From NCBI GenBank assembly GCA_963965975.1, contig OZ014414.1, positions 6,547,501 to 6,611,500 of the forward strand: DNA of 64,000 nucleotides. Reading direction: 5' to 3'. Shown piece by piece: positions 6,601-52,600 of this stretch. Under the pieces are notes generated by a model. The model saw nothing but the letters and a program-made list of their open reading frames with translations. It had not been told where the DNA came from and made no database searches. The DNA is from Xestospongia bergquistia (lineage: Eukaryota; Porifera; Demospongiae; Haplosclerida; Petrosiidae). Numbering within the stretch: the first letter of the stretch is position 1; each line of letters begins with the position of its first letter. Made by a program: the position numbers and the translations under genes.

Positions 6601-7521
6601 CTCACTTATAAGTGATACAGACGCACCCGTGTCGAGTTCCATGTCCAAGTTTTGACCATTAATCACAACTGACACCCGAATTGGCTTCACAGATGTCGTT
6701 TTCACTGGGTACATAGTGAGAACCTCAGTTTCTGGCTCACCATCATCAACAGTGAGTGTTTTGGTCTCTAGATCATGTTGCTGTCCTTTTTGTGAACGCT
6801 GTTGTTGTGTCTTTCTATGACCATTCTTCTTTTTATGACACACCTTCTGCAAGTGTCCTGTTTTACCACAATAATGGCATTGGTAGTCCTTAAATCGACA
6901 ACCTGTAGGAGGGTGTTGACCTCCACAACGATAACAATTAGTTCCTTGCATTTTATCTTGTACTTGGTGAATGGAAACATCTCTAACTGAGGGCTGAGCT
7001 TGTGACGGTTGTATGTCTAAAAGATCCTTGCTGGCTGTTTCTAAGGCTTGTGCTAAATCAAATGATGACGTCAAAGTTAATTTCGGTTCTGCCAGAAGTC
7101 TTTTTTGTATCTTTGGCTCGTTAACACCACAAACTAATCGGTCACGGAGCATATCATCCAAAGCATCGTTAAACTCACAATGCTTGGCTATGTTGCGTAA
7201 GTCAGCAACAAAATTCGCTATCGATTCACCTTGATTCCGTACTCGTGTATGAAACTTGTAGTGCTGAACGATAATGGACGGGGTGGGGGAGTAATGTTTC
7301 TTGATAAGTGCCACGAGGTCATCATACGATTTATCACCCGGCTTGTCTGGTGCTACCAGGTTACAAGCTAACGAATATACCTCTGCTGTCAACAGGGTAG
7401 ATCGACGCTTGGCTTCCGTTGTTATGTCATTTGCGATAAAGTAATGTTCTAACCTCTCAACATTAGTAGACCAATTGTCGGTTGCTGGATCAAAACACTC
7501 GACTCTTCCGTGAACAGGCAT
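3621..7521 (-). pseudogene. gag-pol of the Gypsy element, two frameshifts
   Basis: Start chosen at the ATG at 7519-7521, not the earlier GTG inside the LTR. Frame 1 (7521-4819): capsid-like region, two zinc knuckles (CYRCGG... and CHYCGKTGHLQKVC), protease DTGAS, reverse transcriptase with the YLDD catalytic motif, RNase H with TCDAS and SDHQPL. A 1-nt slip in a T-run near 4922 moves the frame into integrase (4897-4290): an HHCC finger with CIPCQ, first Asp in QLDYVGPF, second in VTDNGSVF. A second slip near 4305-4312 separates the catalytic Glu (NGLAERAV) into the frame 4300-3621, which ends with a basic integrase C-terminus. There is no envelope gene. Confidence 0.9.
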
Positions 7522-7527
7522 TGAATA

Positions 7528-7549
7528 GGTTTTTACCCTCGTCGCCAAA
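7528..7549 (-). promoter_or_regulatory. Primer-binding site of the Gypsy element
   Basis: Two bases inside the 5' LTR boundary the minus strand reads TGGCGACGAGGGT, starting with the TGG that pairs with a tRNA CCA end. The tRNA species was not identified. Confidence 0.6.
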
Positions 7550-8323
7550 TGAGGTAACCTGAGGACCACGCTAACGTTTGACCAAGATTAGAGAAGATTG
7601 ACAACAACTTATATTTTTTAAGAACAGCAATGACTAACGTGACATACACCAGGGCCTCCAACCTCAAAATTTGATTTTCCCCTAGGGGAACTAAAATTTT
7701 TCCCTTTATTTCCCTAAATACAAAATTAGTAACCCCCTAAACCCCCCCTTAAGTTTTACAATATTTCCTTGAATTTTCCCTAGAAAAACCAATAGTTATC
7801 TTATACTTAAACCAATACTTAGTCATTGTCAGAGTCAGAACTTTCATCACTATCATACATTTCTAAGTCGACACATTTGCACATGGAACTGTCAGGTTTA
7901 AATTCCACACAAGTGCAAGGCAAGCTTCGTTTAGTCAAAATAATAGCATCTAAAGTTTTTGTTTTCATACTATTTCTTGTCTTGTTTTGTTGTATGCCTG
8001 CTAATCAGTGAATGTTACATGTATGTAATCATGCATGTTTATCAAAAATAGATTTTAAACAGGCTATGAATTTATTATTAGTTATAAATATTATTAAAAG
8101 GTTTGAAATTATAAAATCCCTAAATTCCTTAATTTTTAAAAATTCCTCCCCTGGACCCTAAGTTAATCAATTATTCCCCAGTTTTAGGGAAATTTCCCTA
8201 ACATTGGAGGCCCTGACATACACACAGACTACGCATGCTCACAAAAACAAAACAAACATTACATCATCATTACACAATCATTACTTAATTAGTAACAAGT
8301 AATTAAACACACAAATTATTACA
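7550..8323 (-). repeat. Right (5') LTR of the Gypsy element, split by a hAT-type insertion
   Basis: LTR sequence runs 7550-7649 and resumes at 8224-8323. Between them lie the 566-bp inserted element and its second 8-bp target copy. Removing these leaves 200 bp, the same length as the left LTR. Confidence 0.92.
7650..8215. mobile_element. Nonautonomous hAT-type element nested in the LTR
   Basis: 566 bp with perfect 12-bp terminal inverted repeats (CAGGGCCTCCAA / TTGGAGGCCCTG) and an 8-bp target duplication ACATACAC at 7642-7649 and 8216-8223. An 8-bp duplication with CAGGG ends is characteristic of hAT transposons. No transposase is encoded; the interior is AT-rich with phased poly-T and poly-A. 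It inserted after the Gypsy element, because it splits the LTR. Confidence 0.85.
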
Positions 8324-8562: not shown

Positions 8563-9624
8563 TCAAGAGGAAAATTTTAGAAGATCTTCTCTAAATAGTT
8601 CATCACTGGCCTGTATCTTCAGTGTAAGATGATTGTTCACTGAATTCACTTTATCTTGAGCTTCAGTTTCATTTGGAAAACAGTCTCTATGAGTAGCTAT
8701 GAAGAATGCAGCAGGTTCTGACTCATCCTTCAGTGGTACTTCATCAAAACTCCATCCAATAGTACTTTCTCCTAAACAAGCTATACTAGCTAGAGAACGA
8801 AAGATGGCCTCTTCATGAGTGAGGGACTTTTGGTAAGGTTTTGAATCACCACTAGATGATTGATATGTAATTTTATAACGACTTGTCAAGTCTATTGTTA
8901 GATCAAAAACAAGTAGATTGATAGCTGGACCAGTGATAAGAGCTGGTAACATTTCATAGAACTCAGGCTGTCCTCCAGTATCAATGATGTGTAACATGGC
9001 ATGACTGTCTTTGGTAGTTTGTTGAGATATCTGTTCATAAATCTTTCTTTTGGTGACTGGAATTTTTTCTACAAATTTTGAGAGAGAATGGATGCCTAAC
9101 TTGATATGTTCTTTTCCAGTGTTTTCATTGTTTTCATTAAGTTCCTCATTCTTTTCTACTATTCCTTTTTCTTCCATTTCTTCTACTAAATTTCTCGCTT
9201 CTTCTATTTTCTCTTGTCGTTTTGTTGTGTTCACTTCAATATCACTATAACTACCATTATTATCCTCTTCTAATTCACATGTATAATCACATTTGATGTC
9301 ATTTTCATTGCTTGCTCTAACTGATGTCACAGTACTCAAAGATGCACTGTTGTTGAACTGAGTGATTTCACTGTTATTAGTAGTCGGACAATCACTTCTT
9401 GACTTGCTAGTTAGAATATTCTCATATATTAAAACAGCTTCTTCATTTACATCTTGTGTCCTCCATTCTGTAGTAACTACTGTATTGTGTTGTTGTAGTT
9501 TACTAAATAAGTTAACTTGTATGGCTGCATCAACCACACCAGTACTAAAAGAAGGTTCTGTAAGGGGCTCATTGAGTAATGTCTTCTTCAAAGTACTCTT
9601 ACCAGCACTTGGTGTTCCTTTTCA
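8563..9624 (-). pseudogene. Gene A Roc-like GTPase domain
   Basis: The P-loop GTPSAGKST lies at 9595-9618, directly after an in-frame TGA (9622-9624). Downstream in the same frame come a Ser/Asn/Glu-rich insert, a Lys/Glu-rich coiled stretch (EEMEEKGIVEKNEE), then the G3-like motif IDTGGQPEFYEMLP, and LLVFDLTIDL. IATHRDCF near the end fits the position of the guanine-specificity motif (usually N/TKxD, here degenerate). This is a Ras-of-complex GTPase of the ROCO/ankyrin type. The P-loop end of this domain lies within the triplicated 2519-bp unit; the rest is unique to copy 1. Confidence 0.75.
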
Positions 9625-11066
9625 GATACATTTCACAGCACATAACATTGCTTTGCCATTAGTGTGAAGTGCTTGATGACATTTGATAAATGAATGGATT
9701 TCATTTTTCTTTCTTGCACCTGAATGTAATGTAGTATTAAATCCTACAATACTGCAGCCTTTATTAACAAGATGTCTCACAATATACACGTGTTCAGATT
9801 GATATGTGACATGGAGCGGTCTTTGATGGTCAGCATTCACAGCATCTATATTGCACTGAGGGTGATTTGTTAGAGTTTTGACAATTTCAAAATGACCCTC
9901 TCGACATGCATAATGCAATGCAGTATTACTGTAGTAATCTTTAGCAGTAACAACACAGCTTTTCTCTACCACTACATGTCGTACAATGTCAACATTTCCA
10001 TGAATACATGATTTATGGAGAGGTCTCAAATGCCATCCATTCTCAGCTTCCAAATTAAATTGCAGACAATCAGTTAAAAGTTTGACAATTTCTAAGAGAC
10101 CTTTATCATTACTACATGCAATGAAGTGTTGTAATTAGTATGACAGTTTTTAGAGTTGACATCAAATACTTCTATACTAACCAAATACTTGGTAACATCT
10201 ACACAACCCAATTCTACAGCCTTATGTAATGGATACATTGCTGCAATGATATCTTTTAGAACAGTGTCTTTAGTAATAAAAGTTGGTTGATCTTCCTTGA
10301 GTCTCCTTGTTAAATATTTATTGATGCCAAAACTTCTAACTAATGCTTCAATCATTGATCCTGATACTTTATATTCTAATGCTGACTTGATGTAGTGATG
10401 TATGCAATCGACACTAACTTTCTGACTCAAGAACGTAACTACTACTTTATGTCCCTGACAAAGTGCATAATGAAGTGGTTGCTGTCCTGTATTGTCTAAT
10501 ACGTCAATATTACATTGTGGTTTAGAAGCAAGATATTCCACTACTGCTAAATGACCATTATTGCATGCGTTATGTATTGGAGTGTATCCTCTGTCATCTG
10601 ATACATGGATATCACGACCTCTTTCATCAAGAGCTATGACAATAACCAAGTTCAGCAGCATGATGTAATGGATATATTCTACTACTATTACTTCTAGTCT
10701 CACAGTTACATTGAGGTAGACAGAGGAGATATTGAACTATTGGTTGACGACCATACTCAATAGCTCTACGTAATGGAGTGTATGCTGCATTATCTAAAGC
10801 ATTTACTTCACACCCTACCTCATCAACAAGGTACTGTATTATACCTAAATCAGCTGATATAGTAACTTGATGAAGGGGTGGATAACTACAGTCTTTCTAT
10901 TAGATTTAATTTTTTTTTTCGCTAATACACGTGGTTTTCTTGACGTACTCTAGTCATAAAATCTTTAAATGATATCACTCTCAATAATATTGTCATTATA
11001 TCGCAATTTGGTGCCTTTTTAATACACTGATATATATCCTCAGCATTTAATATATAGTCAGGATTA
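9625..11066 (-). pseudogene. Gene A ankyrin block, copy 1
   Basis: Minus-strand ankyrin repeats in at least two frames: block 10703-10092 (for example GYTPIHNACNNGHLAVVEYL and GQQPLHYALCQGHKVVVTFL) and block 10053-9625 (NTALHYACREGHFEIVKTL, RPLHVTYQSEHVYIVRHL). Upstream at about 10860-10720 a further repeat reads TPLRRAIEYGRQPIVQYL. Ankyrin repeats are 33-residue protein-binding modules. Frameshifts near 10070-10130 and 10700 and a stop near 10915 break the frame. This copy connects to the rest of the GTPase domain. Confidence 0.7.
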
Positions 11067-11809
11067 AAGTCTATTCGCGTTCACCTGCCAGTGGAAGTAG
11101 TTACGCAATAAAAATTATAAGTAATAAACCACAAATGAAAATATTTTTGGTTTTAAAAAAATGTACAAATTAACCGCGAACCTCGTGAACGCACGTGGAA
11201 CTTCATGTTCGATGATCATTACGAGCAGAAACCAACCAAAGTTAGGTAAAAAAACAGCCAAAGGCAGAAGAATATCTTCACAATCTAAATACATTGTTGA
11301 GAATGTGAGAGCATTTTTTGAGAAGGAGAGGTTGAAGTGAACTTTAATAATAAGAGACTGTCAGTTGTCAAAAGGACAGCAGTGGTCTGTTATTAAAAAC
11401 CATCAATCGAATTCACCAGGAGTACGTAAGTCATGGTGGTCAGTTTCTGACACCAGTTAAAAGATATGGTGTTTCACGAATAAGAATCAACCCCGATTCG
11501 TTTGACAGAGAAATAATTTGTAGAACCATTCATAACGTTTACTGTAGAAAGGAATAGGAATATCCTACTCTCTGTAGTGTTTTGGATAAAATTAAGAAAG
11601 AGTTTGGTTTCCCAGGCGGCAGATTTTGTTTATGGAGAGTTCTAAAAGAGATGGGATATTCATATAAAAAGAAGGACAATAAACAATTTTTATACGAACA
11701 ACGAAATATACTGGAACAAAGAGACACATACCTACGACAAATAAGACAACTAAGACAACAGAATGTAAACTTTGTTTACACAGACGAAACATGGGTCAAT
11801 GCACATCAC
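11067..11809 (+). mobile_element. Truncated mariner-IS630 element, copy 1 of the triplication
   Basis: First 743 bp of the element seen complete at 16105-18180: left inverted repeat (AAGTCTATTCGCGTTCACC), degenerate helix-turn-helix region and transposase up to YTDETWVNAHH, where the duplication junction cuts it. It contains the first catalytic Asp only. Confidence 0.85.
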
Positions 11810-12143
11810 ATTTGATGTCATTTTCATTGCTTGCTCTAACTGATGTCACAGTACTCAAAGATGCACTGTTGTTGAACTGAGTGATTTCACTGTTATTAGT
11901 AGTCGGACAATCACTTCTTGACTTGCTAGTTAGAATATTCTCATATATTAAAACAGCTTCTTCATTTACATCTTGTGTCCTCCATTCTGTAGTAACTACT
12001 GTATTGTGTTGTTGTAGTTTACTAAATAAGTTAACTTGTATGGCTGCATCAACCACACCAGTACTAAAAGAAGGTTCTGTAAGGGGCTCATTGAGTAATG
12101 TCTTCTTCAAAGTACTCTTACCAGCACTTGGTGTTCCTTTTCA
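11810..12143 (-). pseudogene. GTPase-domain stub with P-loop, copy 2
   Basis: Duplicate of the N-terminal part of the Roc-like domain (P-loop at 12114-12137) cut at 11810 by the duplication junction and followed by transposon sequence. It cannot encode a complete GTPase. Confidence 0.8.
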
Positions 12144-13585
12144 GATACATTTCACAGCACATAACATTGCTTTGCCATTAGTGTGAAGTGCTTGATGACA
12201 TTTGATAAATGAATGGATTTCATTTTTCTTTCTTGCACCTGAATGTAATGTAGTATTAAATCCTACAATACTGCAGCCTTTATTAACAAGATGTCTCACA
12301 ATATACACGTGTTCAGATTGATATGTGACATGGAGCGGTCTTTGATGGTCAGCATTCACAGCATCTATATTGCACTGAGGGTGATTTGTTAGAGTTTTGA
12401 CAATTTCAAAATGACCCTCTCGACATGCATAATGCAATGCAGTATTACTGTAGTAATCTTTAGCAGTAACAACACAGCTTTTCTCTACCACTACATGTCG
12501 TACAATGTCAACATTTCCATGAATACATGATTTATGGAGAGGTCTCAAATGCCATCCATTCTCAGCTTCCAAATTAAATTGCAGACAATCAGTTAAAAGT
12601 TTGACAATTTCTAAGAGACCTTTATCATTACTACATGCAATGAAGTGTTGTAATTAGTATGACAGTTTTTAGAGTTGACATCAAATACTTCTATACTAAC
12701 CAAATACTTGGTAACATCTACACAACCCAATTCTACAGCCTTATGTAATGGATACATTGCTGCAATGATATCTTTTAGAACAGTGTCTTTAGTAATAAAA
12801 GTTGGTTGATCTTTCTTGAGTCTCCTTGTTAAATATTTATTGATGCCAAAACTTCTAACTAATGCTTCAATCATTGATCCTGATACTTTATATTCTAATG
12901 CTGACTTGATGTAGTGATGTATGCAATCGACACTAACTTTCTGACTCAAGAACGTAACTACTACTTTATGTCCCTGACAAAGTGCATAATGAAGTGGTTG
13001 CTGTCCTGTATTGTCTAATACGTCAATATTACATTGTGGTTTAGAAGCAAGATATTCCACTACTGCTAAATGACCATTATTGCATGCGTTATGTATTGGA
13101 GTGTATCCTCTGTCATCTGATACATGGATATCACGACCTCTTTCATCAAGAGCTATGACAATAACCAAGTTCAGCAGCATGATGTAATGGATATATTCTA
13201 CTACTATTACTTCTAGTCTCACAGTTACATTGAGGTAGACAGAGGAGATATTGAACTATTGGTTGACGACCATACTCAATAGCTCTACGTAATGGAGTGT
13301 ATGCTGCATTATCTAAAGCATTTACTTCACACCCTACCTCATCAACAAGGTACTGTATTATACCTAAATCAGCTGATATAGTAACTTGATGAAGGGGTGG
13401 ATAACTACAGTCTTTCTATTAGATTTAATTTTTTTTTTCGCTAATACACGTGGTTTTCTTGACGTACTCTAGTCATAAAATCTTTAAATGATATCACTCT
13501 CAATAATATTGTCATTATATCGCAATTTGGTGCCTTTTTAATACACTGATATATATCCTCAGCATTTAATATATAGTCAGGATTA
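12144..13585 (-). pseudogene. Gene A ankyrin block, copy 2
   Basis: Same reading-frame pattern and lesions as copy 1. It carries the single difference that turns Glu into Lys in RRLKKDQ, shared with copy 3. Confidence 0.75.
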
Positions 13586-14328
13586 AAGTCTATTCGCGTT
13601 CACCTGCCAGTGGAAGTAGTTACGCAATAAAAATTATAAGTAATAAACCACAAATGAAAATATTTTTGGTTTTAAAAAAATGTACAAATTAACCGCGAAC
13701 CTCGTGAACGCACGTGGAACTTCATGTTCGATGATCATTACGAGCAGAAACCAACCAAAGTTAGGTAAAAAAACAGCCAAAGGCAGAAGAATATCTTCAC
13801 AATCTAAATACATTGTTGAGAATGTGAGAGCATTTTTTGAGAAGGAGAGGTTGAAGTGAACTTTAATAATAAGAGACTGTCAGTTGTCAAAAGGACAGCA
13901 GTGGTCTGTTATTAAAAACCATCAATCGAATTCACCAGGAGTACGTAAGTCATGGTGGTCAGTTTCTGACACCAGTTAAAAGATATGGTGTTTCACGAAT
14001 AAGAATCAACCCCGATTCGTTTGACAGAGAAATAATTTGTAGAACCATTCATAACGTTTACTGTAGAAAGGAATAGGAATATCCTACTCTCTGTAGTGTT
14101 TTGGATAAAATTAAGAAAGAGTTTGGTTTCCCAGGCGGCAGATTTTGTTTATGGAGAGTTCTAAAAGAGATGGGATATTCATATAAAAAGAAGGACAATA
14201 AACAATTTTTATACGAACAACGAAATATACTGGAACAAAGAGACACATACCTACGACAAATAAGACAACTAAGACAACAGAATGTAAACTTTGTTTACAC
14301 AGACGAAACATGGGTCAATGCACATCAC
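13586..14328 (+). mobile_element. Truncated mariner-IS630 element, copy 2 of the triplication
   Basis: Identical in layout to 11067-11809: left terminal repeat to the DETW motif, then the junction into the next unit. Confidence 0.85.
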
Positions 14329-14662
14329 ATTTGATGTCATTTTCATTGCTTGCTCTAACTGATGTCACAGTACTCAAAGATGCACTGTTGTTGAACTGAG
14401 TGATTTCACTGTTATTAGTAGTCGGACAATCACTTCTTGACTTGCTAGTTAGAATATTCTCATATATTAAAACAGCTTCTTCATTTACATCTTGTGTCCT
14501 CCATTCTGTAGTAACTACTGTATTGTGTTGTTGTAGTTTACTAAATAAGTTAACTTGTATGGCTGCATCAACCACACCAGTACTAAAAGAAGGTTCTGTA
14601 AGGGGCTCATTGAGTAATGTCTTCTTCAAAGTACTCTTACCAGCACTTGGTGTTCCTTTTCA
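14329..14662 (-). pseudogene. GTPase-domain stub with P-loop, copy 3
   Basis: P-loop at 14633-14656, otherwise as copy 2. Cut at 14329 by the duplication junction. Confidence 0.8.
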
Positions 14663-16104
14663 GATACATTTCACAGCACATAACATTGCTTTGCCATTAG
14701 TGTGAAGTGCTTGATGACATTTGATAAATGAATGGATTTCATTTTTCTTTCTTGCACCTGAATGTAATGTAGTATTAAATCCTACAATACTGCAGCCTTT
14801 ATTAACAAGATGTCTCACAATATACACGTGTTCAGATTGATATGTGACATGGAGCGGTCTTTGATGGTCAGCATTCACAGCATCTATATTGCACTGAGGG
14901 TGATTTGTTAGAGTTTTGACAATTTCAAAATGACCCTCTCGACATGCATAATGCAATGCAGTATTACTGTAGTAATCTTTAGCAGTAACAACACAGCTTT
15001 TCTCTACCACTACATGTCGTACAATGTCAACATTTCCATGAATACATGATTTATGGAGAGGTCTCAAATGCCATCCATTCTCAGCTTCCAAATTAAATTG
15101 CAGACAATCAGTTAAAAGTTTGACAATTTCTAAGAGACCTTTATCATTACTACATGCAATGAAGTGTTGTAATTAGTATGACAGTTTTTAGAGTTGACAT
15201 CAAATACTTCTATACTAACCAAATACTTGGTAACATCTACACAACCCAATTCTACAGCCTTATGTAATGGATACATTGCTGCAATGATATCTTTTAGAAC
15301 AGTGTCTTTAGTAATAAAAGTTGGTTGATCTTTCTTGAGTCTCCTTGTTAAATATTTATTGATGCCAAAACTTCTAACTAATGCTTCAATCATTGATCCT
15401 GATACTTTATATTCTAATGCTGACTTGATGTAGTGATGTATGCAATCGACACTAACTTTCTGACTCAAGAACGTAACTACTACTTTATGTCCCTGACAAA
15501 GTGCATAATGAAGTGGTTGCTGTCCTGTATTGTCTAATACGTCAATATTACATTGTGGTTTAGAAGCAAGATATTCCACTACTGCTAAATGACCATTATT
15601 GCATGCGTTATGTATTGGAGTGTATCCTCTGTCATCTGATACATGGATATCACGACCTCTTTCATCAAGAGCTATGACAATAACCAAGTTCAGCAGCATG
15701 ATGTAATGGATATATTCTACTACTATTACTTCTAGTCTCACAGTTACATTGAGGTAGACAGAGGAGATATTGAACTATTGGTTGACGACCATACTCAATA
15801 GCTCTACGTAATGGAGTGTATGCTGCATTATCTAAAGCATTTACTTCACACCCTACCTCATCAACAAGGTACTGTATTATACCTAAATCAGCTGATATAG
15901 TAACTTGATGAAGGGGTGGATAACTACAGTCTTTCTATTAGATTTAATTTTTTTTTTCGCTAATACACGTGGTTTTCTTGACGTACTCTAGTCATAAAAT
16001 CTTTAAATGATATCACTCTCAATAATATTGTCATTATATCGCAATTTGGTGCCTTTTTAATACACTGATATATATCCTCAGCATTTAATATATAGTCAGG
16101 ATTA
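14663..16104 (-). pseudogene. Gene A ankyrin block, copy 3
   Basis: This copy adjoins the complete mariner-type element and thus the real N-terminus of gene A. Between 16104 and about 15960 the minus strand reads NPDYILNAEDIYQCIKKAPN, which continues directly from the ankyrin frame on the far side of the transposon, then reaches a stop (TAG) near 15961. The following ankyrin repeats are as in copies 1 and 2. Confidence 0.72.
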
Positions 16105-39559: not shown

Positions 39560-42299
39560 TGAATGCTGTAGATTTTTGACTGATTTCTAAAAGACTCACT
39601 TTCTGTCAACTTTCTAAGCAATAATATGAGGACACATAGATTACTACAAAAATCTTGTAATGGAATCATGAAATTATTTTCATTTCTAACAAATGTTTAG
39701 GTAATCACTATTGCTGTTTTATACAAAAATATAAACTTTGACGTCAACAAAAACATTATACTTGTTACAATGACAACATTTTATTTAATAACATTTCCAA
39801 ATACAAGACAAAAGTGAAGAAAATGTGCTACTTCTAGTTTTTAAACAAATACAATTACAAAGTTGTTTCATGATAATGCACTCGTAATTTTACCATTTCT
39901 TAATTCTTCTATATTATTATTTGACCTCTAGCTTCAACTTTAGGTTTAGAATCTATAAATATTCAGGTTATTGTAGCAATTTTGTATATACAGTCATAAC
40001 ATAACAAAATAACATTATTTTGTTAAACAAATGTAACCATTTACAGGTGTCCATATATTACGTCATAATAATAATGCTTTGTTATTTGTATTTTCTTATT
40101 ATAAGTGACTCAATAATGCAAAGAATGTAAACAGTGAAAGTTGTCAAAAGTTCATCTTTGTTGTTGTTTGAACCATTAACGTTTTGGAAGAGAGCAAGAT
40201 TAGTCACGTTATATTCATAATTACTGCCATTGGTAGGATATCCTTTGTACCATGTAATCTCTCTTTCCCGCTGTGTGTGTAATATATAAAACTATATTTT
40301 TAGTAAGTTTTAAAATAATATGATCAAACATAACCAGCATACCTATACATGATCCTGTTAAAACGTGTAGACATTTGTACATGTTTAAGCTTGAGGTTTA
40401 TAAAATAAACAAGTATTAAATCAAAAACAAGACTTGGGTGCATGTCCACACAAAACTTTGAAAACGAAACTTTTTTTTTTACAAATAAGAAAATTGACAT
40501 GGCTTATGCATGATATTATTGAATGGAGTGGATATAAGAGGGATAAGAAATTCATATGAAAATAAGAATAAGTTAATCACATCTTTGGAGTTGTATTTGA
40601 TTGTTTAAGTATTAGTATGGCTATACCAACAGCCATAGTAAATATGGTATTTCATCAAGTATAATTATTGCATTCTTCTATGATGTATGTGAGTTAGTAA
40701 TTAATGTGTTGTGTTGCTTGTTCAGTTGTAAAGTTGGTCTAGTTCGTATATATTGGCAGTAGTAATTTTCTGACACGATCCTTCTTTGTGTTTTTTTGAA
40801 ATTGAATTAGTTAAGAGGATCATTTGTAAATAATCTATGATACCACAGTAAAGTGAAAATACTGAGTAGACGTAAGTTTTTACAATCAATGTGGCAGATG
40901 AGATGAAGCTTCTAGAATGTTACAGAACTCTAGACTTTTTTTGTTTTTTCTACTCAATCTTTTATATATATGCACTTTGAATTATTAAGTTTAATTGTGT
41001 ATGTTAGATTTAACTGCATATATATAATGTGCATTCCATAGCCATATATCACATACAATTCTATACTATTCCATTATCAATAAACAATATGTATCTACTG
41101 TTTTTGTACGTTTCTACACAAATTTCTCTAATGATGTTCTACTATATGTAAGGCTGCCCCCTTCACAAACTATTAATGCTTACAAGATATCAGGTCTGCA
41201 GTTATTTCTCCATAATGGACATCTGCATTAAGTACAAGGTTCCTTTTTTAATATTGGGATATTTTTGACCATCATTCTTAAATGTTACAAAATATCTGTT
41301 GTAACAATAAGTCATCTTTTTACATTTTAGCTCTAGTCAGTGTTTTACTGTGAAGTCAATATCTTCCAATTGAAAAGAATTATACGATGATAATTCCCAA
41401 TTATAGTCTTGTTATTTCCTTGATTTATGAATATTTTCTCCTTATCTTTTATAAATTATGTTAATATTAATATTTATCCACCTCCTTTAAAATAGGCATA
41501 TCTGAATGTAGCATGGACATGCTATTTAATTAACAAGACTGTGAATGCCATGTTCAGAGAGACAAAGTACATGTGCAGTACTTTATCTTATATCCAATCA
41601 GGTTATTTATAGAGAAAGGTCTATTTTTATTTTTAGGCAATTCTTATTTAGTCATGTGTTAAAGATGTACAGTTCAATTAAATTAATTAATTAATTAATT
41701 GTGGTATAAAAGATAACTTGGTATTCAGTCTTGTCATTTATTGTTTCACATCATTGCTTTTCTAAATTTAAGGTCAGATCCTTGCAATGATTCATATTAC
41801 TGAAAGCAACAAATGGGTTGAAACACTATTCTTTCATGTGACAACACTGAAGTAAAAACTGGAAACGTGCAGTAGAGTACTAGTCTAGTACATATCCTAG
41901 CTCAACATGTCACAAAGCATTTCCAAATCAGTAGATATTAAATCAAATTTGCTGTAACAGTTGCTGAGATAACTTTGGTCTGGCTATTAATATATATAAA
42001 ATGCAAGATGGCTGAGCTTGACTAATATTTGGCTAAAATTGTCATTGGAAGAAATAACAGAGGCTCCTTTTCCTCTTGAACATTCACAAAGCCATTGTAT
42101 AAGCCTATATATATGCAGTAATCATGATACAGGCACTGACAGCTAAATTAAGAAGAGCTGGTAGTCCAACTTTAGTTGTATGTACTTTACCAAGTCTAAA
42201 ATCTTATATGACCTGTACTATCATCAATAAAGTAAATGACATATTGTTCAGAAAGTGATGGTAAATTTTAAAGCATTACTCAATGTCTTTGATTGACTA
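39560..42299. other. AT-rich intergenic region
   Basis: No coding potential recognised. It contains an (AATT)n tract at about 41680-41700 and stops at the left inverted repeat of the 7.3-kb element. Confidence 0.5.
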
Positions 42300-42620
42300 A
42301 CATAGTACATCCTCCAGACATTCTTTTACTATTTCCAGGTAGAACTGAAAGAAGCAATATAGTATCCACGATATTGAAATGAAATAGCTCTGGGTGCCAG
42401 AGATAAACGCTTTCAAACCCTAATTTTCGGACTGCCCCTTGTTCGGACAAAAATTCCAAATGACGGACATGGACTTTCCTCTCGCAAGGAAAGAAACAAC
42501 TGCACGGTTGCTACCATCATCAGGTAGGAATGTCATTGCACTATAATAACAGCAAACAATAATAACTCCCTTTCACTCTGTTTCTGCAAAATTAGCACTA
42601 CTTTGGAGGCATCTACCGTG
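42300..42620. repeat. Left terminal inverted repeat, 321 bp
   Basis: Reverse complement of 49297-49617. It includes a GC-richer stretch with CGGACTGCCCCTTGTTCGG and GACGGACATGGAC motifs, unlike the AT-rich surroundings. Confidence 0.88.
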
Positions 42621-42882: not shown

Positions 42883-43020
42883 TCATTCACATTTCTTACA
42901 AATAAAAACAAAACTCTTAGACTTGGCTTTCTGTTGTGGTATAGACACACAAATGCAATGCATTCATTCGTGGCAAAGTGAACACATAATCCAAGTACTA
43001 GCACAAGGATAAGCACAATT
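42883..43020 (-). pseudogene. Cys/His-rich (PHD-like) finger remnant downstream of the array
   Basis: The minus-strand frame reads NCAYPCASTWIMCSLCHE, an in-frame TGA, then MHCICV and after a Lys-rich stretch FICKKCE with a stop. The spacing Cys-x3-Cys, Cys-x2-Cys, His, Cys, Cys-x2-Cys resembles the PHD-like finger that closes many Tigger/pogo-type transposases. The frame does not join simply to the last mini-exon (phase 1), and the TGA replaces an expected Trp, so this C-terminus is probably damaged. Confidence 0.4.
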
Positions 43021-43079
43021 ACCACTAAGACAAGTATTTAACACATTAAAAATAGTATGAAGTTACTAAAAGTTATTAC

Positions 43080-46000
43080 CAGTATCACTAGTATCTCTAC
43101 AAGTTCCAGTTCCATTACTTCTTACAGTAGTATCAGTAGCACCTAATGTTACAGTTATATATACAATATTAGTATCTAGTTATTAAAAGTTATAACCTGT
43201 CTCAGTAATACTTCTTTGTCCTCTACGAGTTCCAGTTCCATTACTTCTTACAATAGTATCAGTAGCACCTAATGTTACAGTTATATATACAATATTAGTA
43301 TCTAGTTATTAAAAGTTATAACCTGTCTCAGTAATACTTCTTTGTCCTCTACGAGTTCCAGTTCCATTACTTCTTACAGTAGTATCAGTAGCTCCTAATG
43401 TTACAGTTTTATATACAATATTAGTATCTAGTTATTAAAAGTTATAACCTATCTCAGTAATACTCCTTTGTCCTCTATGAGTTGGAGTTCCATTACTTCT
43501 TACAGTAGTATCAGTAGCTCCTAATGTTACAGTTATATATACAATACTAGCATCTAGTTATTAAAAGTTATAACCTGTCTCAGTATTACACCTTTGTCCT
43601 CTATGAGTTCCAGTTCCATTACTTCTTACAGTAGTATCAGTAGCACCTAATGTTACAGTTATATATACAATATTAGTATCTAGTTATTAAAAGTTATAAC
43701 CTGTCTCAGTATTACTTCTCTGTCCTCTACGAGTTGCAGTTCTTACAGTAGTATCAGTAGCACCTAATGTTACAGTTATATATACAATATTAGTATCTAG
43801 TTATTAAAAGTTATAACCTGTCTCAGTATTACTTCTCTGTCCTCTACGAGTTGCAGTTCCATTACTTCTTACAGTAGTATCAGTAGCACCTAATGTTAAA
43901 GTTATATATACAAGATTAGTATCTAGTTATTAAAAGTTATAACCTGTCTCAGTATTACTTCTCTGTCCTCTACGAGTTGCAGTTCCATTACTTCTTACAA
44001 TAGAATCAGTAGCACCTAATGTTACAGTTATATATACAATATTAGTATCTAGTTATTAAAAGTTATAACCTGTCTCAGTAATACTTCTTTGTCCTCTACG
44101 AGTTCCAGTTCCATTACTTCTTACAGTAGTATCAGTAGCTCCTAATGTTACAGTTATATATACAATATTAGTATCTAGTTATTAAAAGTTATAACCTATC
44201 TCAGTAATACTCCTTTGTCCTCTATGAGTTGGAGTTCCATTACTTCTTACAGTAGTATCAGTAGCTCCTAATGTTACAGTTATATATACAATATTAGCAT
44301 CTAGTTATTAAAAGTTATAACCTGTCTCAGTATTACACCATTGTCCTCTATGAGTTCCAGTTCCATTACTTCTTACAGTAGTATCAGTAGCACCTAATGT
44401 TACAGTTATATATACAATATTAGTATCTAGTTATTAAAAGTTATAACCTGTCTCAGTATTACTTCTCTGTCCTCTACGAGTTGCAGTTCTTACAGTAGTA
44501 TCAGTAGCACCTAATGTTACAGTTATATATACAATATTAGTATCTAGTTATTAAAAGTTATAACCTGTCTCAGTATTACTTCTCTGTCCTCTACGAGTTG
44601 CAGTTCCATTACTTCTTACAGTAGTATCAGTAGCACCTAATGTTACAGTTATATATACAATATTAATATCTAGTTATTAAAAGTTATAACCTGTCTCAGT
44701 ATTACTTCTCTGTCCTCTACGAGTTGCAGTTCCATTACTTCTTACAGTAGTATCAGTAGCACCTAATGTTACAGTTATATATACAATATTAGTATCTAGT
44801 TATTAAAAGTTATAACCTGTCTCAGTATTACTCCTTTGTCCTCTACGAGTTGCAGTTCCATTACTTCTTACAGTAGTATCAGTAGCACCTAATGTTACAG
44901 TTATATATACAATATTAGTATCTAGTTATTAAAAGTTATAACCTGTCTCAGTATTAGTCCTTTGTCCTCTATGAGTTGCAGTTCCATTACTTCTTACAGT
45001 AGTATTAGTAGCTCCTAATGTTACAGTTATATGTACAATATTAGCATCTAGCTATTAAAAGTTATAACCTGTCTCAGTAATACTCCTTTGTCCTCTACGA
45101 GTTCCAGTTCCATTACTTCTTACAATAGTATCAGTAGCACCTAATGTTACAGTTATATATACAATATTAGTATCTAGTTATTAAAAGTTATAACCTGTCT
45201 CAGTATTACTTCTCTGTCCTCTACGAGTTGCAGTTCCATTACTTCTTACAGTAGTATCAGTAGCACCTAATGTTAAAGTTATATATACAAGATTAGTATC
45301 TAGTTATTAAAAGTTATAACCTGTCTCAGTATTACTTCTCTGTCCTCTACGAGTTGCAGTTCCATTACTTCTTACAATAGTATCAGTAGCACCTAATGTT
45401 ACAGTTATATATACAATATTAGTATCTAGTTATTAAAAGTTATAACCTGTCTCAGTAATACTTCTTTGTCCTCTACGAGTTCCAGTTCCATTACTTCTTA
45501 CAGTAGTATCAGTAGCTCCTAATGTTACAGTTATATATACAATATTAGTATCTAGTTATTAAAAGTTATAACCTATCTCAGTAATACTCCTTTGTCCTCT
45601 ATGAGTTGGAGTTCCATTACTTCTTACAGTAGTATCAGTAGCTCCTAATGTTACAGTTATATATACAATATTAGCATCTAGTTATTAAAAGTTATAACCT
45701 GTCTCAGTATTACACCTTTGTCCTCTATGAGTTCCAGTTCCATTACTTCTTACAGTAGTATCAGTAGCACCTAATGTTACAGTTATATATACAATATTAG
45801 TATCTAGTTATTAAAAGTTATAACCTGTCTCAGTATTACTTCTCTGTCCTCTACGAGTTGCAGTTCTTACAGTAGTATCAGTAGCACCTAATGTTACAGT
45901 TATATATACAATATTAGTATCTAGTTATTAAAAGTTATAACCTGTCTCAGTATTACTTCTCTGTCCTCTACGAGTTGCAGTTCCATTACTTCTTACAGTA

Positions 46001-47948
46001 GTATCAGTAGCACCTAATGTTACAGTTATATATACAATATTAATATCTAGTTATTAAAAGTTATAACCTGTCTCAGTATTACTTCTCTGTCCTCTACGAG
46101 TTGCAGTTCCATTACTTCTTACAGTAGTATCAGTAGCACCTAATGTTACAGTTATATATACAATATTAGTATCTAGTTATTAAAAGTTATAACCTGTCTC
46201 AGTATTACTCCTTTGTCTTCTACGAGTTGCAGTTCCATTACTTCTTACAGTAGTATCAGTAGCACCTAATGTTACAGTTATATATACAATATTAATATCT
46301 AGTTATTAAAAGTTATAACCTGTCTCAGTATTAGTCCTTTGTCCTCTATGAGTTGCAGTTCCATTACTTCTTACAGTAGTATTAGTAGCTCCTAATGTTA
46401 CAGTTATATGTACAATATTAGCATCTAGCTATTAAAAGTTATAACCTGTCTCAGTAATACTCCTTTGTCCTCTACGAGTTCCAGTTCCATTACTTCTTAC
46501 AATAGTATCAGTAGCACCTAATGTTACAGTTATATATACAATATTAGTATCTAGTTATTAAAAGTTATAACCTGTCTCAGTATTACTTCTCTGTCCTCTA
46601 CGAGTTGCAGTTCCATTACTTCTTACAGTAGTATCAGTAGCACCTAATGTTAAAGTTATATATACAAGATTAGTATCTAGTTATTAAAAGTTATAACCTG
46701 TCTCAGTATTACTTCTCTGTCCTCTACGAGTTGCAGTTCCATTACTTCTTACAATAGTATCAGTAGCACCTAATGTTACAGTTATATATACAATATTAGT
46801 ATCTAGTTATTAAAAGTTATAACCTGTCTCAGTAATACTTCTTTGTCCTCTACGAGTTCCAGTTCCATTACTTCTTACAGTAGTATCAGTAGCTCCTAAT
46901 GTTACAGTTATATATACAATATTAGTATCTAGTTATTAAAAGTTATAACCTATCTCAGTAATACTCCTTTGTCCTCTATGAGTTGGAGTTCCATTACTTC
47001 TTACAGTAGTATCAGTAGCTCCTAATGTTACAGTTATATATACAATATTAGCATCTAGTTATTAAAAGTTATAACCTGTCTCAGTATTACACCTTTGTCC
47101 TCTATGAGTTCCAGTTCCATTACTTCTTACAGTAGTATCAGTAGCACCTAATGTTACAGTTATATATACAATATTAGTATCTAGTTATTAAAAGTTATAA
47201 CCTGTCTCAGTATTACTTCTCTGTCCTCTACGAGTTGCAGTTCTTACAGTAGTATCAGTAGCACCTAATGTTACAGTTATATATACAATATTAGTATCTA
47301 GTTATTAAAAGTTATAACCTGTCTCAGTATTACTTCTCTGTCCTCTACGAGTTGCAGTTCCATTACTTCTTACAGTAGTATCAGTAGCACCTAATGTTAC
47401 AGTTATATATACAATATTAGTATCTAGTTATTAAAAGTTATAACCTGTCTCAGTATTACTCCTTTGTCCTCTACGAGTTGCAGTTCCATTACTTCTTACA
47501 GTAGTATCAGTAGCACCTAATGTTACAGTTATATATACAATATTAGTATCTAGTTATTAAAAGTTATAACCTGTCTCAGTATTAGTCCTTTGTCCTCTAT
47601 GAGTTGCAGTTCCATTACTTCTTACAGTAGTATTAGTAGCTCCTAATGTTACAGTTATATGTACAATATTAGCATCTAGCTATTAAAAGTTATAACCTGT
47701 CTCAGTAATACTCCTTTGTCCTCTACGAGTTCCAGTTCCATTACTTCTTACAATAGTATCAGTAGCACCTAATGTTACAGTTATATATACAATATTAGTA
47801 TCTAGTTATTAAAAGTTATAACCTGTCTCAGTATTACTTCTTTGTCCTCTAAGAGTTGCAGTTCCATTACTTCTTACAGTAGTATCAGTAACTCCTAATG
47901 TTACAGTTATATATGCAATATTAGTATCTAGTTATTGAAAGTTATTAC
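43080..47948. repeat. 126-bp tandem array with 1377-bp higher-order repeat
   Basis: Donor-side marks fall at 126-bp steps from 43196 to 47948, with four 117-bp units. A distinctive unit (cctatctcag... tatgagttggag) recurs at 43448, 44195, 45572 and 46949. The last two intervals are exactly 1377 bp, that is ten 126-bp units plus one 117-bp unit; the first is 747 bp (five plus one). The array thus grew by copying of 6- and 11-unit blocks. Confidence 0.92.
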
Positions 47949-47976
47949 CTGTCTCAGTATTACTCTTTTGTCCTCT
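43080..47976 (-). CDS. Mini-exon array: 39 phase-1 mini-exons encoding a 24-residue repeat
   Basis: Each 126-bp unit, read on the minus strand, is a 72-nt exon (consensus ATDTTVRSNGTATRRGQR plus SNTETG) followed by a 54-bp intron starting GTTATAAC, with a TACTAAT branch-site-like motif and ending ACATTAG. All 39 units keep GT and AG; exon frames contain no stop. Exons are symmetric (phase 1-1). Five exons are 63 nt: four lack three codons (SNG) and the last (43080-43142) ends CRDTSDTG. The first partial exon (47949-47976, RGQKSNTETG) joins in frame to the coiled-coil exon ending at 48039. The spliced array is about 2.8 kb, predicting a polar, Arg/Ser/Thr-rich, probably disordered tail. Expression and splicing are inferred; a non-coding satellite is the alternative. 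Confidence 0.6.
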
Positions 47977-48038
47977 CTGACTCATAGTAGTACAAAATAA
48001 AGGTATTGAAATGTAAAAATAAAGGATTATTTTCTTAC

Positions 48039-48706
48039 TTTTATGTCTTTTTTCAGCTTTTCTTCTAAAATCTTTCGTTTCTCCTCTTGTTTACGCTGAT
48101 GCTCAATTTTTCTCTCTTCTTTCTGCTTCAAGGCTTCTGCTTTTTTCCTTTCTTTCTCATTTATTTCCTTTCTACATTCTTCACTGGTCAACACACTTGC
48201 ACTTGACTTTGCTGTAAATTTTGGAATTACTCTTTCAGGAGGCATTGCAGCAATTAGCTTAGAAACTACTGAATGAGATGAAGGTTGTAGAACTGCTGTA
48301 GGAGATGAAGGTGCAGGTTCTGTTGCTCCATTCTGAAGTGACACCCAATAATTGTATCTGGGATCAGTTTTGATGTTATATCTTCTGCCTTACGTCGAGA
48401 GAATCTCACTATCTCATCATGAGTAAAGGGTTGGTGTACAGTGTCAGAAGACTGTCAGAAGACTGTTGATGACAACTAGAGTTGTGGTATAGTAATGACT
48501 CTTCAAGCACTGTATAATCATTTTCTGACTCAACAGACATTGACTCATCACTTTGAACATTATCATAAGGAGTTGAGACAGGAGTAATACCAGTAGCTGC
48601 TGATTGCACTGAATGGCGAAGAGGAATGAACAGTGGAATAAACTTCAGACCAGTTCGTTCACACATGGTGGGGTGCTTGGGTGGACTCTTTGTTAATACT
48701 TTGAAC
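48039..48706 (-). pseudogene. Transposase-associated linker and coiled-coil exon
   Basis: Begins after a 41-bp intron (48707-48747), joining PID-R to FKVLTKSPPKHPTM in phase. It continues with a Ser-rich acidic part (NVQSDESMSVESENDYTVLE), then the pattern FTHDEIVRFSRRKAE, and after a frame change TDPRYNYWVSLQNGA, which matches the EGYDL-DPRYxxWL signature after DDE_1 domains. An 11-bp direct duplication near 48448-48468 and a 1-nt shift near 48385 break the frame. The 3' half (48344-48039) is open and forms a Lys/Glu coiled coil (KERKKAEALKQKEERKIEHQ). The donor at 48038 is GTAAGA. Confidence 0.65.
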
Positions 48707-48747
48707 CTAATGAAAAGAAAATAATAATAAAAGTTTAATTTGCACAC

Positions 48748-49288
48748 CTGTCAATTGGGTAAATACCAGTAACCCTAAAACCAGATATGATATTGTGTGG
48801 AGTCATTGCTTTCATCCGAGCACAGTTAAACAACAGAGAGAATTGATATCGAGTCACAACTTTGCCAGGATTATTAACCATGTATGAATGACACTCCTCT
48901 CTCCATGCTTTCTTCAGCGGACCGAATACACCTTTATCTAAAGGTTGAGTCTTGTGTGTACTATGTGGAGGAAGACAAAAGACAATAACTTGCTCTTCTG
49001 CTGCTTTGTTGACAAATACTGGTGAAAAGTGACTAGAGTGTCCATCCATGAGAAGAAGCAGTGGTCGAGCAGGAGGAGCATAAACCAAAAAGTGGCTAGT
49101 AAACCACCACTCAAAAATTTCTGCATCCATCCACCCACTATCACTAAGACCATACATGGTGCCGGGGACCTCTCCATGTGTCAAGTCAAGTTTCAACGTC
49201 TTTCTATCAAAAATGACAAGTGGTGGTAAAGCGTATCCACCTGCATTACAGCAGGATAATACAGTTATTTGACTTCTCTCAGAACTAG
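48748..49288 (-). pseudogene. DDE_1 (pogo/Tigger-type) transposase, N-terminus missing
   Basis: The frame opens after a TGA at the inner edge of the right inverted repeat with TVTSSERSQITVLSC, then PPLVIFDRKTL, MYGLSDSGWMDAEIFEWWF, the second catalytic Asp in LLLLMDGHSSHF, and the third in THKTQPLDKGVFGPLKKAW, then SGFRVTGIYPID before a GTGTGC donor. The CENP-B/HTH DNA-binding region and the first catalytic Asp, normally a little upstream of TSSERSQ, are absent because the terminal repeat begins there. The protein cannot be catalytically active as it stands. Confidence 0.8.
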
Positions 49289-49296
49289 TGACAGTT

Positions 49297-49617
49297 CACG
49301 GTAGATGCCTCCAAATTAGTGCTAATTTTGCAGAAACAGAGTGAAAGGGAGTTATTATTGTTTGCTGTTATTATAGTGCAATGACATTCCTACCTGCTGA
49401 TGGTAGCAACCGTGCAGTTGTTTCTTTCCTTGCGAGAGGAAAGTCCATGTCCGTCATTTCGAATTTTTGTCCGAACAAGGGGCAGTCCGAAAATTAGGGT
49501 TTGAAAGCGTTTATATCTGGCACTCAGAGCTATTTCATTTCAATATCGTGGATACTATATTGCTTCTTTAAGTTGTACCTGGCAATAGTAAAAGAATGTC
49601 TGAAAGATGTACTATGT
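49297..49617. repeat. Right terminal inverted repeat, 321 bp
   Basis: Inverted copy of 42300-42620; its inner edge replaces the N-terminal half of the transposase gene. Confidence 0.88.
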
Positions 49618-52600
49618 TAATGCTAGCGCGTCCGATTGATGGGCGTGTCCGATAATTGGCCGTTTACTCTATATACACATATGCACAACCATCTACTATC
49701 TGTCTATCCACCCATCCATCCATCCATCCATCTATTTATTGGTTTTTGTTGAGTATTTCTGTCAATGCCATATTCTATAAGAAACCAATACTGTTATATT
49801 CAACTTATAGTTGTCGCACTCCTTTTCATGTTTCTCTTGATATTTCAAAAGTTTCTAATTACTAGACCAGACTGGACTACAAGGTATGGATTAGTCCTAT
49901 ATAATTATAATGAAGACAAAATAAAAAAATTAGGAATATTAATACTATGTAAATTTATTTGAATCAGTTGCGATATTGACCAAAGTGTATTACATAAAGT
50001 GATTGCATATCATGAATAACTGTATGACATAAATTGGGCTCCAATAATACTAACTACTCTGGAAAGTAGCCAAAATTTATCTAGGTCTGTCAACATTTAA
50101 AGGTTAACTTTTCAACCCACCTAACATTGACAGAGCTTATTAAGTCTAATTTAATTGCTGTAAAAACCAATACTCAATATTTTCTTTAATATGTACCAAT
50201 CAATGACAGCGACATTTAATTCATCAATGAAACAAGTTACTTTGTGACCATGTATTCTTTCTTATTGTCAACTAAATATATATATATATATATGTATATA
50301 GGTTTGCTTGATCAGTTCTGTCATTTACTTTAAAAGAGTGTATATGTTTATTGATATGTAGTAGAACATATATTACTGTAATATTAATAGCTATTTAAAA
50401 TAATCCTATTGGATTATAAGTAACTGAGTTTTAAGTTTAGTTTCTAATCAAACTGTAATCGTGCAATCTGTAATTGTGCAATCCAACAATTTTTAATGAT
50501 CTCCCTCATTTTAAAAATAGAACTAAAGTTAGTTATAGTCCACCATGTCATTTGCAATTATAGAATGTGTGATGATGTAGATGTAAATATATATCTCCAC
50601 AACAAAGGACTTTGTTAATTGTGAATAGTAGTACTGTGTTGATAGCAATGTCAAATTGCTGATTTTCGTCATTAGTTCAAAAACTATTCATGAAAAATGC
50701 ATATATTGTTGCTTTTCCTTGATGCTAGCTACATTTTTAGCAAGTTGTCTACAGACTTTCAACTTCTATTTACAATTTTTAAACTTGTACTATCTTTACT
50801 TGAATCCTGGCCATCCCTACATAAGTGCTCCAAGTGATTAAAGAACCTTGATAATGACTTCTTTTTGAGATATAATAACTAGAAACATTGAATAGTTATA
50901 TAGCTATCATATGATCTGATATCCTGACCTTACTTTATTGTACCCACTGACTTGTATCTACTACTTTTACATATTCTTTATTGCCTTACAATATAATATC
51001 TCAGCAATGTCTTGTACTAGTAGTACTGCTAGTGGATCTCTTAAACATCTAAATAGTATATTATTGATAGGATTTCATATGACTGTCTTTACACTTAAGT
51101 TATTTTAAGTTTTAGGATGAAATTTAATTTCTATACAGATCACTGACATTCATTTCATTCATAAAAAGCTATAGTTTGAACAAACTCAGACAAGTTAGAA
51201 ATGAACTATAATTGCTAGTACTATGTAGTGTATGTCACTTCACTAGTGTGACCAATCTGATATGCAGTGTTATCAAAGATAATGTGGGTTATGTAAATCA
51301 AGAAATCAATTTAATAACTAAATAAAAACAGGTAGGTCTAAAAGTCATGTTAAAGACTTGTTAAAAGATGAACTAACAGCAAGTGAACATCTCAATGATT
51401 ACAGATGCTCTGCTGATATGTAGGCTCAAGAAATAAAGGAGAATTTCGTCCTGAGAAACAGAGCACTCATTTTCATCCTCTCTTCCATTGGTGACATGAC
51501 AAAGTGGTTAGACCATTTTACAAATTAATTACCTTATAGGTAAAGAAAGACCTGATTTTGCTAGTGCCTTATTCATTGTGGTAGTAGGTGGTAAATTCAT
51601 GTAAATAAAATAATAGACAGAGCTCACTGTGGTACTCGCTATCATTTATTGTTTATTGTCCAATAAGTTTGCATATTTCCCTTTCAATGGTGATCTTGTC
51701 AGAAGACTATAAAAAACAATTAGGATCAATTATAAATACATAGCATTTTATTACAAACTGTTTTATGCCTTGTTTATAATTTTAACACAGCCAAGCATTT
51801 AAATTGTGAAAACTGGCACTGTAGAGTACAGATATTATGTCATCTTCCTTAAATTTTAGCTGCTAAATAATAACTTTTCTATAAATTCGTATAATTTCTT
51901 TACCATGTTATTGAATTATCAATGACGTTTTTTAGTTAGAATGTATGAACATGGTATTTTTGTAAGAGAAAACGTTTCGACATCATTCCTACATAATAGC
52001 ACAACAAGCAGTCAAAGGATGTCAACCACTTATTACCATGATCTAAAAATACTAACATTAAGTGTGGTAGCTATAAACCTCTGAGTCGAAACATTTTCTC
52101 TTTACTAAAATATCATGTTCATTAAGCTCAACTAAAAGACTTCATTGATAATAACTTTTGTATTTGTTGTTATTTCAGGATTGTTTATATAAGAACTTAT
52201 CAGATGTGACTAAACACAAATAACTATATATTCCTCAAAAGTAATCAAACCCCATAACCCTACAGCTTTTCATGTTATTGAATAATGAAGAGTAATTATG
52301 AATTATATTATATACAAGAATTATTATTTTGGTGCAAATAGCTAAAGTATTTACGGTTGTTACAACCAAAATTGAGCTGAAATATGATTAATAAATTGCT
52401 TTATTTGTACTGATTTACAATAATTAATTACATACATTTCCTGTTATATTATGTTCTCTAAGATTAATGTCCTTCATTACTTGCATAAACAGAATTAATT
52501 ATGCCATTGTGCTCATATTAAATCAATAATGGGTATATAGGTCACATGTATTTATTTGATGTATTGCACATCCAATCTTCGTAATATATTTTCATTGATT

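Follow-up and report, generated by a model that had tools for sequence, protein, structure and literature searches.

The question raised by this locus is whether a tandem array of 126-bp units, lying in a stretch of 64,000 nucleotides from the sponge Xestospongia bergquistia (contig OZ014414.1, positions 6,547,501 to 6,611,500 of the forward strand; this whole stretch is the window), is an ordinary satellite or a series of small exons. A first-pass annotation, made from the letters of the window, had read it as consecutive mini-exons of a transposon gene. Judging from relatives, we consider it very probable that the array makes up a tail of mini-exons in a pogo-like transposase gene, grown by whole phase-1 units; the window holds a decayed copy of this gene. 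The gene would encode, in order, a psq/Tc5 helix-turn-helix, a DDE domain and a coiled coil, followed by phase-1 mini-exons with introns of ~40-57 nt and by a PHD-like finger. The anatomy, the fit of the phases, an intact relative and the differences in unit number among near-identical copies were observed directly. The genome searched (146 Mb) is that of the window; the window copy is called A, and its subfamily, the A subfamily, includes copies A, B, C, E, G, H, L035 and L036.

The array in the window

The array occupies positions 43080..47948 of the minus strand and comprises 39 units, each made of a 54-nt GT-AG intron and a phase-1 exon of 72 or 63 nt (GATDTTVRSNGTATRRGQRSNTET). As a head-to-tail tandem array of 39 copies of 126 bp with 94% matches, it is a satellite. 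The annotation had described 39 minus-strand units with stop-free exon blocks and intact splice dinucleotides, and this was confirmed: all 39 intron blocks measure 54 bp and run from GT to AG, 34 exon blocks measure 72 nt and 5 measure 63 nt, and none of the 39 contains an in-frame stop. Of the span given for the array, 43080..47976, the start is correct, while the end falls inside a lead exon (47949-47996), the array itself ending at 47948. The 9-bp changes in exon length are indeed multiples of three, but four of the five 63-nt blocks share an identical internal 9-nt deletion and the fifth is a distinct terminal exon.

Only 19 different sequences occur among the 39 units (15 among the exons and 8 among the introns), and an 11-unit higher-order repeat, 1377 bp long, is present; the units therefore cannot be counted as 39 independent observations. 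The copies of the higher-order repeat differ over their core at 2-5 positions per 1377 bases, compared with ~3-5% between element copies; judged by this divergence, the higher-order repeat is of more recent origin than the element copies. The 39 units of A are a late amplification of an 11-unit block, and the amplified array is probably free of function.

Taken alone, the window array proves little about its exon-intron nature, and the case rests on the comparison with relatives. When the 126-bp unit was shuffled 1000 times with its dinucleotides preserved, 35% of the results permitted a phase-1 AG/GT split, and for six units taken from different subfamilies 35-79% of the shuffles permit one by chance. 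The annotation had taken the absence of stops among exon changes as coding evidence. In the exon blocks of A this stop avoidance is not significant: a stop would result from only 6 of the 216 single substitutions open to the exon consensus, and with 17 exon alleles in A a count of zero is about what chance predicts. The comparison of exon with intron substitutions, which it had proposed as a check, gave 0.24 alleles per site in exons and 0.20 in introns, so that exons are not more constrained than introns. Both measures fail to separate coding from non-coding sequence. The exon alleles of A comprise 14 non-synonymous and 3 synonymous ones; over the five element arrays of the A subfamily the ratio is 30:7 against 154:55 possible. 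No selection on the repeats is visible in the A subfamily, stop avoidance included, and 5 of its 77 in-element exons, in copies B and G, are frameshifted. As proof of an expansion by exon-intron units, the annotation's own evidence is insufficient, given the yield of the shuffles and the lack of any stop or constraint signal.

Arrays of other units in relatives

From a sample of the 150 transposase matches, nine relatives outside the A subfamily (L037, L038, L039, L040 and L044-L048) were covered over a sufficient length; their identity to the transposase query is 60-73%, and they form six further groups (L038; L039; L037/L040/L046; L044/L047; L045; L048). All nine carry arrays of other units at the same position of the gene. 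This recurrence in several subfamilies, together with a gene that ends in a PHD-finger exon, goes beyond what the annotation had proposed. The units of these relatives measure 102-248 bp, mostly not a multiple of three, for which reason their arrays are unreadable unspliced. Their exons are multiples of three in all 86 scored cases (78 in eight loci and 8 in L045), a count that holds when the donor of L037/L040/L046 is moved by one base. An unspliced read-through frame, considered as a further candidate, was rejected on the same unit lengths and on the A-subfamily intron, which leads to a stop within 4 codons if retained.

Changes of length within the arrays distinguish the two parts of the unit. 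Exon lengths differ by multiples of three in nine of nine changes (57/81, 60/69, 57/48, 57/63, 54/60, 66/84, 51/42, 90/87 and 90/99), whereas among intron-length changes this holds for one of seven (43/45; 47/46, 47/48, 47/49 and one 3-nt insertion in L037/L040/L046; 49/48; 55/57), a contrast with p = 0.0009 that becomes 6/6 against 1/6 (p = 0.015) without L045; the set of changes is small and was compiled by eye.

The intact relative, L038, reads together with its neighbour L041 as one gene of 19 exons and 1,098 residues with no internal stop. Its transposase exon is followed by 17 mini-exons, each 57 or 81 nt long and thus a multiple of three, and by a finger exon; the 18 introns between these exons measure 39-46 nt and are all GT-AG. 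Pfam identifies DDE_1 (2.5e-25), HTH_psq (2.8e-07) and HTH_Tnp_Tc5 (2e-05) in L038, and all three exceed their curated cut-offs.

Near-identical copies differ in unit number. Four copies of the L038 type hold 16, 19, 19 and 12 scored units, and ten copies of the L044 type hold 9-12. In these young copies all 172 scored exons are stop-free and multiples of three, and all 172 introns are GT-AG. Their finger exons are 99-100% identical where aligned (122 of 257 bases compared in L052, 146 of 257 in L053 and 182 of 223 in L057), with the exception of L062 (95.5%, one gap). One representative repeat per family contains 20-50% Ser/Thr and 11-25% basic residues, and the sequences differ between families.

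Unequal exchange, recombination or repair slippage would add or remove whole units in frame. The frame would be kept even for units whose length is no multiple of three, because each unit is a whole symmetric exon plus an intron; units of 102, 103, 106, 110, 115 and 124 bp could thus be gained or lost, each with its whole phase-1 exon and intron. If this is true, the family is a natural case of splicing making a coding tandem repeat frame-proof. The young copies, with 9-19 scored units, offer a series in which repeat expansion, tiny introns and linker length can be set against splicing and transposition.

All seven subfamilies compared have a finger exon that allows a phase-1 junction. Its phase-1 acceptor is kept in six of the seven copies whose 3' end was checked (B, C, E, G, H and L036) and lost in A. 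With the Pfam PHD model (PF00628; cut-off 24 bits, pattern Cys4-His-Cys3), three of the seven subfamilies score above the cut-off, namely A (27.0 bits), L045 (25.3) and L044 (24.4). By position and cysteine pattern we call all seven fingers PHD-like. In the PDB, the L044 and A fingers match the sequences of BPTF, KDM5A/B and DIDO1, and the best matches of the A finger among solved structures include the PHD fingers of KDM5A/B, PHF8 and BPTF. PHD fingers of the KDM5A/B, PHF8 and BPTF type bind methylated H3K4. A possible membrane tail, suggested by a hydrophobic frame following the last intron (VVIVLILVLVLG..), was rejected, since the phase-1 acceptor kept in those six copies leads to the PHD finger.

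The window copy and the arrays outside elements

In the window the element is read on the minus strand. Its 5' terminal inverted repeat (TIR; 49296..49669) ends in TA|GAGTAAACGGCC, the flanking TA lying at 49670-49671. The transposase fragment that follows (48735..49292, minus strand) is the C-terminal part of the DDE domain, named from the intact relative, and is all of that domain that A retains; ~1.13 kb of 5' transposase found at this position in B, G and H is absent. A predicted 41-nt intron (48707..48747, minus strand; GTGTGC..TTAG) separates the DDE exon from the coiled-coil exon (48039..48706, minus strand), the frame of which is broken in A and the coiled coil of which was judged by eye. 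An ancestral 42-nt intron (47997..48038, minus strand) leads towards the array; its acceptor is AT in A and AG in B, C, G, H, E and L036, and its donor is lost in E. The lead exon (47949..47996, minus strand; ICTTMSQRGQKSNTET) is 48 nt long, not repeated, and ends in phase 1.

On the other side of the array lies an ancestral 42-nt last intron (43038..43079, minus strand), whose acceptor reads GTGTTAA in A and GTGTTAG in B, C, E, G, H and L036. It is followed by the relic of the PHD-finger exon (42883..43037, minus strand), with one in-frame stop; its 51 residues are intact in B and H. The 3' TIR (42298..42620, plus strand) lacks its terminal ~50 bp (GAGTAAAC..) and is 96.9% identical to the 5' TIR over 323 bases, the TIRs being ~370 bp long. 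TIRs with a TA adjoining GAGTAAAC are present in B, G, H and E and at the 5' end of A, the other end of A being truncated; this comparison covers copies of the A subfamily.

The window copy is a decayed relic, with a truncated TIR, missing transposase, a frameshift, two lost acceptors and a stop in the finger. This copy very probably does not produce the tail of about 930 residues that the annotation had predicted, because its transposase, TIR, coiled-coil frame, acceptors and finger have decayed. The other part of that prediction, a transposon gene expanded by whole units, is upheld by the relatives.

Elsewhere in the genome, A-subfamily arrays between coiled-coil and finger exons count 4 units in H, 12 in G, 14 in B and 8 in E, the E array being split by a second element copy. 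An array at G000 C9:4325563-4330406 (L018, L019) is split by an inverted copy of the same family, which was apparently inserted at a TA inside an array intron.

Other arrays of the 126-bp unit lie outside complete elements, with 101 scored units at C, 56 at D and 48 at F. No transposon parts were found in loci D and F, and C holds a rearranged element piece. GT-AG is kept in 77 of 77 in-element units (A, B, E, G and H) against 159 of 209 displaced or escaped ones (C1, C2, D and F), and fully intact units number 72 of 77 against 130 of 205. The GT-AG contrast gives a Fisher p of 3e-8 over all units, which are not independent, and of 4e-4 over distinct introns; divergence in introns is also higher for the escaped arrays (4.1%) than for the in-element ones (3.1%). 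The flanks on both sides are common to loci D and F (88% and 97% identity over 4 kb), and C shares with them the upstream flank (89-92%) and ~1.9 kb downstream (98%); this suggests a single escape and, later, segmental duplication. Arrays of this kind with shared non-element flanks were located at G000 C3:3951861-3966991, C3:4934273-4941682 and C9:4527275-4533930 (L011-L017 and L020-L022), and the C3/C9 satellite appears to be a transposon escapee duplicated with its surroundings. These loci suggest how a coding exon may become satellite DNA.

Further observations concern the genome and the rest of the window. Transposase relics with similar stop counts, mostly 50-220 kb apart, form one block per contig (G000: C5 4.57-5.19 Mb, C6 3.37-4.23 Mb, C13 3.30-4.15 Mb, C15 2.44-3.10 Mb and C7 4.74-5.18 Mb); these may be large repeated units, possibly centromeric. 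Five transposase copies spaced 4.3-5.2 kb apart at G000 C1:5711746-5730359 are probably a tandemly repeated element. The window also contains, on the minus strand, three near-identical 2.5-kb coding repeats (9622-15741), which we take to be ankyrin-like, and open frames resembling a polyprotein (3621-7569), presumably that of a Gypsy-type LTR retrotransposon.

Readings of the array and known systems

The product of the mini-exons would be a Ser/Thr/Arg/Gly-rich linker of variable length, probably disordered, and the difference of the repeats from family to family fits the expectation for a disordered linker. We favour a role of this linker as a flexible, length-variable tether between the catalytic and coiled-coil part and a chromatin-binding finger. 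The wider proposal, a pogo clade with a spliced exon satellite, of differing units in at least seven subfamilies, that tunes this tether and sometimes founds a free satellite, we hold at about even chances.

Several observations weigh against reading the arrays as spliced exons that end in a histone-binding finger. Besides the permissive shuffles, the absent selection and the frameshifted exons of the A subfamily, and the small, by-eye set of length changes, one array exon of L048 contains a stop and all six A-subfamily transposases read (A, B, G, H, L035 and L036) are broken. The PHD score is below the cut-off in L048 (21.1 bits), L038 (18.9) and L037 (11.8), the intact L038 finger has Asp in place of the zinc-binding His, the finger piece of L039, cut by a stop, gave no PHD match, and the finger exons of L039 and L040 end early. 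Splicing, as read from the sequence, linker disorder, histone binding and the tether function are all inferences.

It is possible that the repeats are spliced and functionless, growing and shrinking neutrally in a permissive linker while only frame-keeping copies stay mobile. The variation of the repeats between subfamilies and the lack of amino-acid constraint in the A subfamily agree with this, as do the other in-frame repeats in nearby linkers of the related proteins P0027, P0057 and P0058; neutral change would, however, be expected to leave array-free copies, and within our sample arrays were found in every non-A relative examined. A second alternative, which we regard as unlikely, is that the array attenuates expression by splicing, retention of a short intron ending translation early and the number of units setting the amount of full-length transposase. 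Of the seven intron types examined, all from families other than L045, six do lead to a stop in 4-21 codons when one intron is retained, and a report on alternatively spliced transcripts in the sponge Amphimedon describes small introns and pervasive intron retention (PMC4432959). Retention of the 45-nt intron that is common in the intact L038 family leaves the frame open, which makes attenuation less likely than the tether; attenuation would also leave the Ser/Thr and basic make-up common to unrelated repeats unexplained. Still less probable is a non-coding satellite within one long intron, the coiled-coil exon splicing to the finger exon and GT/AG being incidental: the yield of the shuffles, the unconstrained A subfamily and the arrays outside complete elements at C, D and F would fit it, but the units of six subfamilies all fit phase 1 (chance product 0.023), exon and intron lengths change differently, every scored young unit is intact, and decay differs between in-element and escaped arrays, even if the latter are somewhat more diverged.

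A protein search gave 79 matches, with 7987 candidates scored. Four of the proteins (P0011, P0049, P0055 and P0057) show by eye the order DDE, coiled coil and finger-like end without an array, the finger-like ends of P0011 and P0055 being below the Pfam PHD cut-offs. P0026, isoform X7 of a predicted gene of Amphimedon queenslandica, ends in a 16-residue tandem repeat; its best match in the genome of the window is 45% identical, so the gene is absent there, and its tail used as a protein query returned only itself. A protein search with the typed A-subfamily tail and finger gave no match. P0027, P0057 and P0058 carry other in-frame tandem repeats, placed after the DDE domain and before the coiled coil. 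In the literature, as covered by titles and abstract openings with subscription journals mostly outside coverage, we found no transposon with an exon-intron array and no sponge pogo element with a PHD finger.

With pogo/Tigger-like DNA transposons the family shares the DDE_1 domain and psq/Tc5 helix-turn-helix, the TIRs and the TA insertion site; it differs from them in the mini-exon array before a PHD-like finger. Collagen, with its 54-bp exons, and nebulin have tandemly repeated exons that are likewise symmetric and of the same phase. These belong to structural genes of the host, whereas here the gene is mobile and its near-identical copies vary in unit number. The micro-exon genes of Schistosoma, according to their description (PMC8293314), also have many short symmetric exons that can be skipped without loss of frame; their exons are of at most 36 bp and encode host-exposed proteins, in contrast to the near-identical tandem exons of 42-99 nt found here in a transposase gene. 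A parallel to loci C, D and F is Tetris of Drosophila virilis, a transposon whose repeat is reported to exist also as a free satellite (PMC4079207); the family described here differs in that the repeat unit would be a coding exon with its intron.

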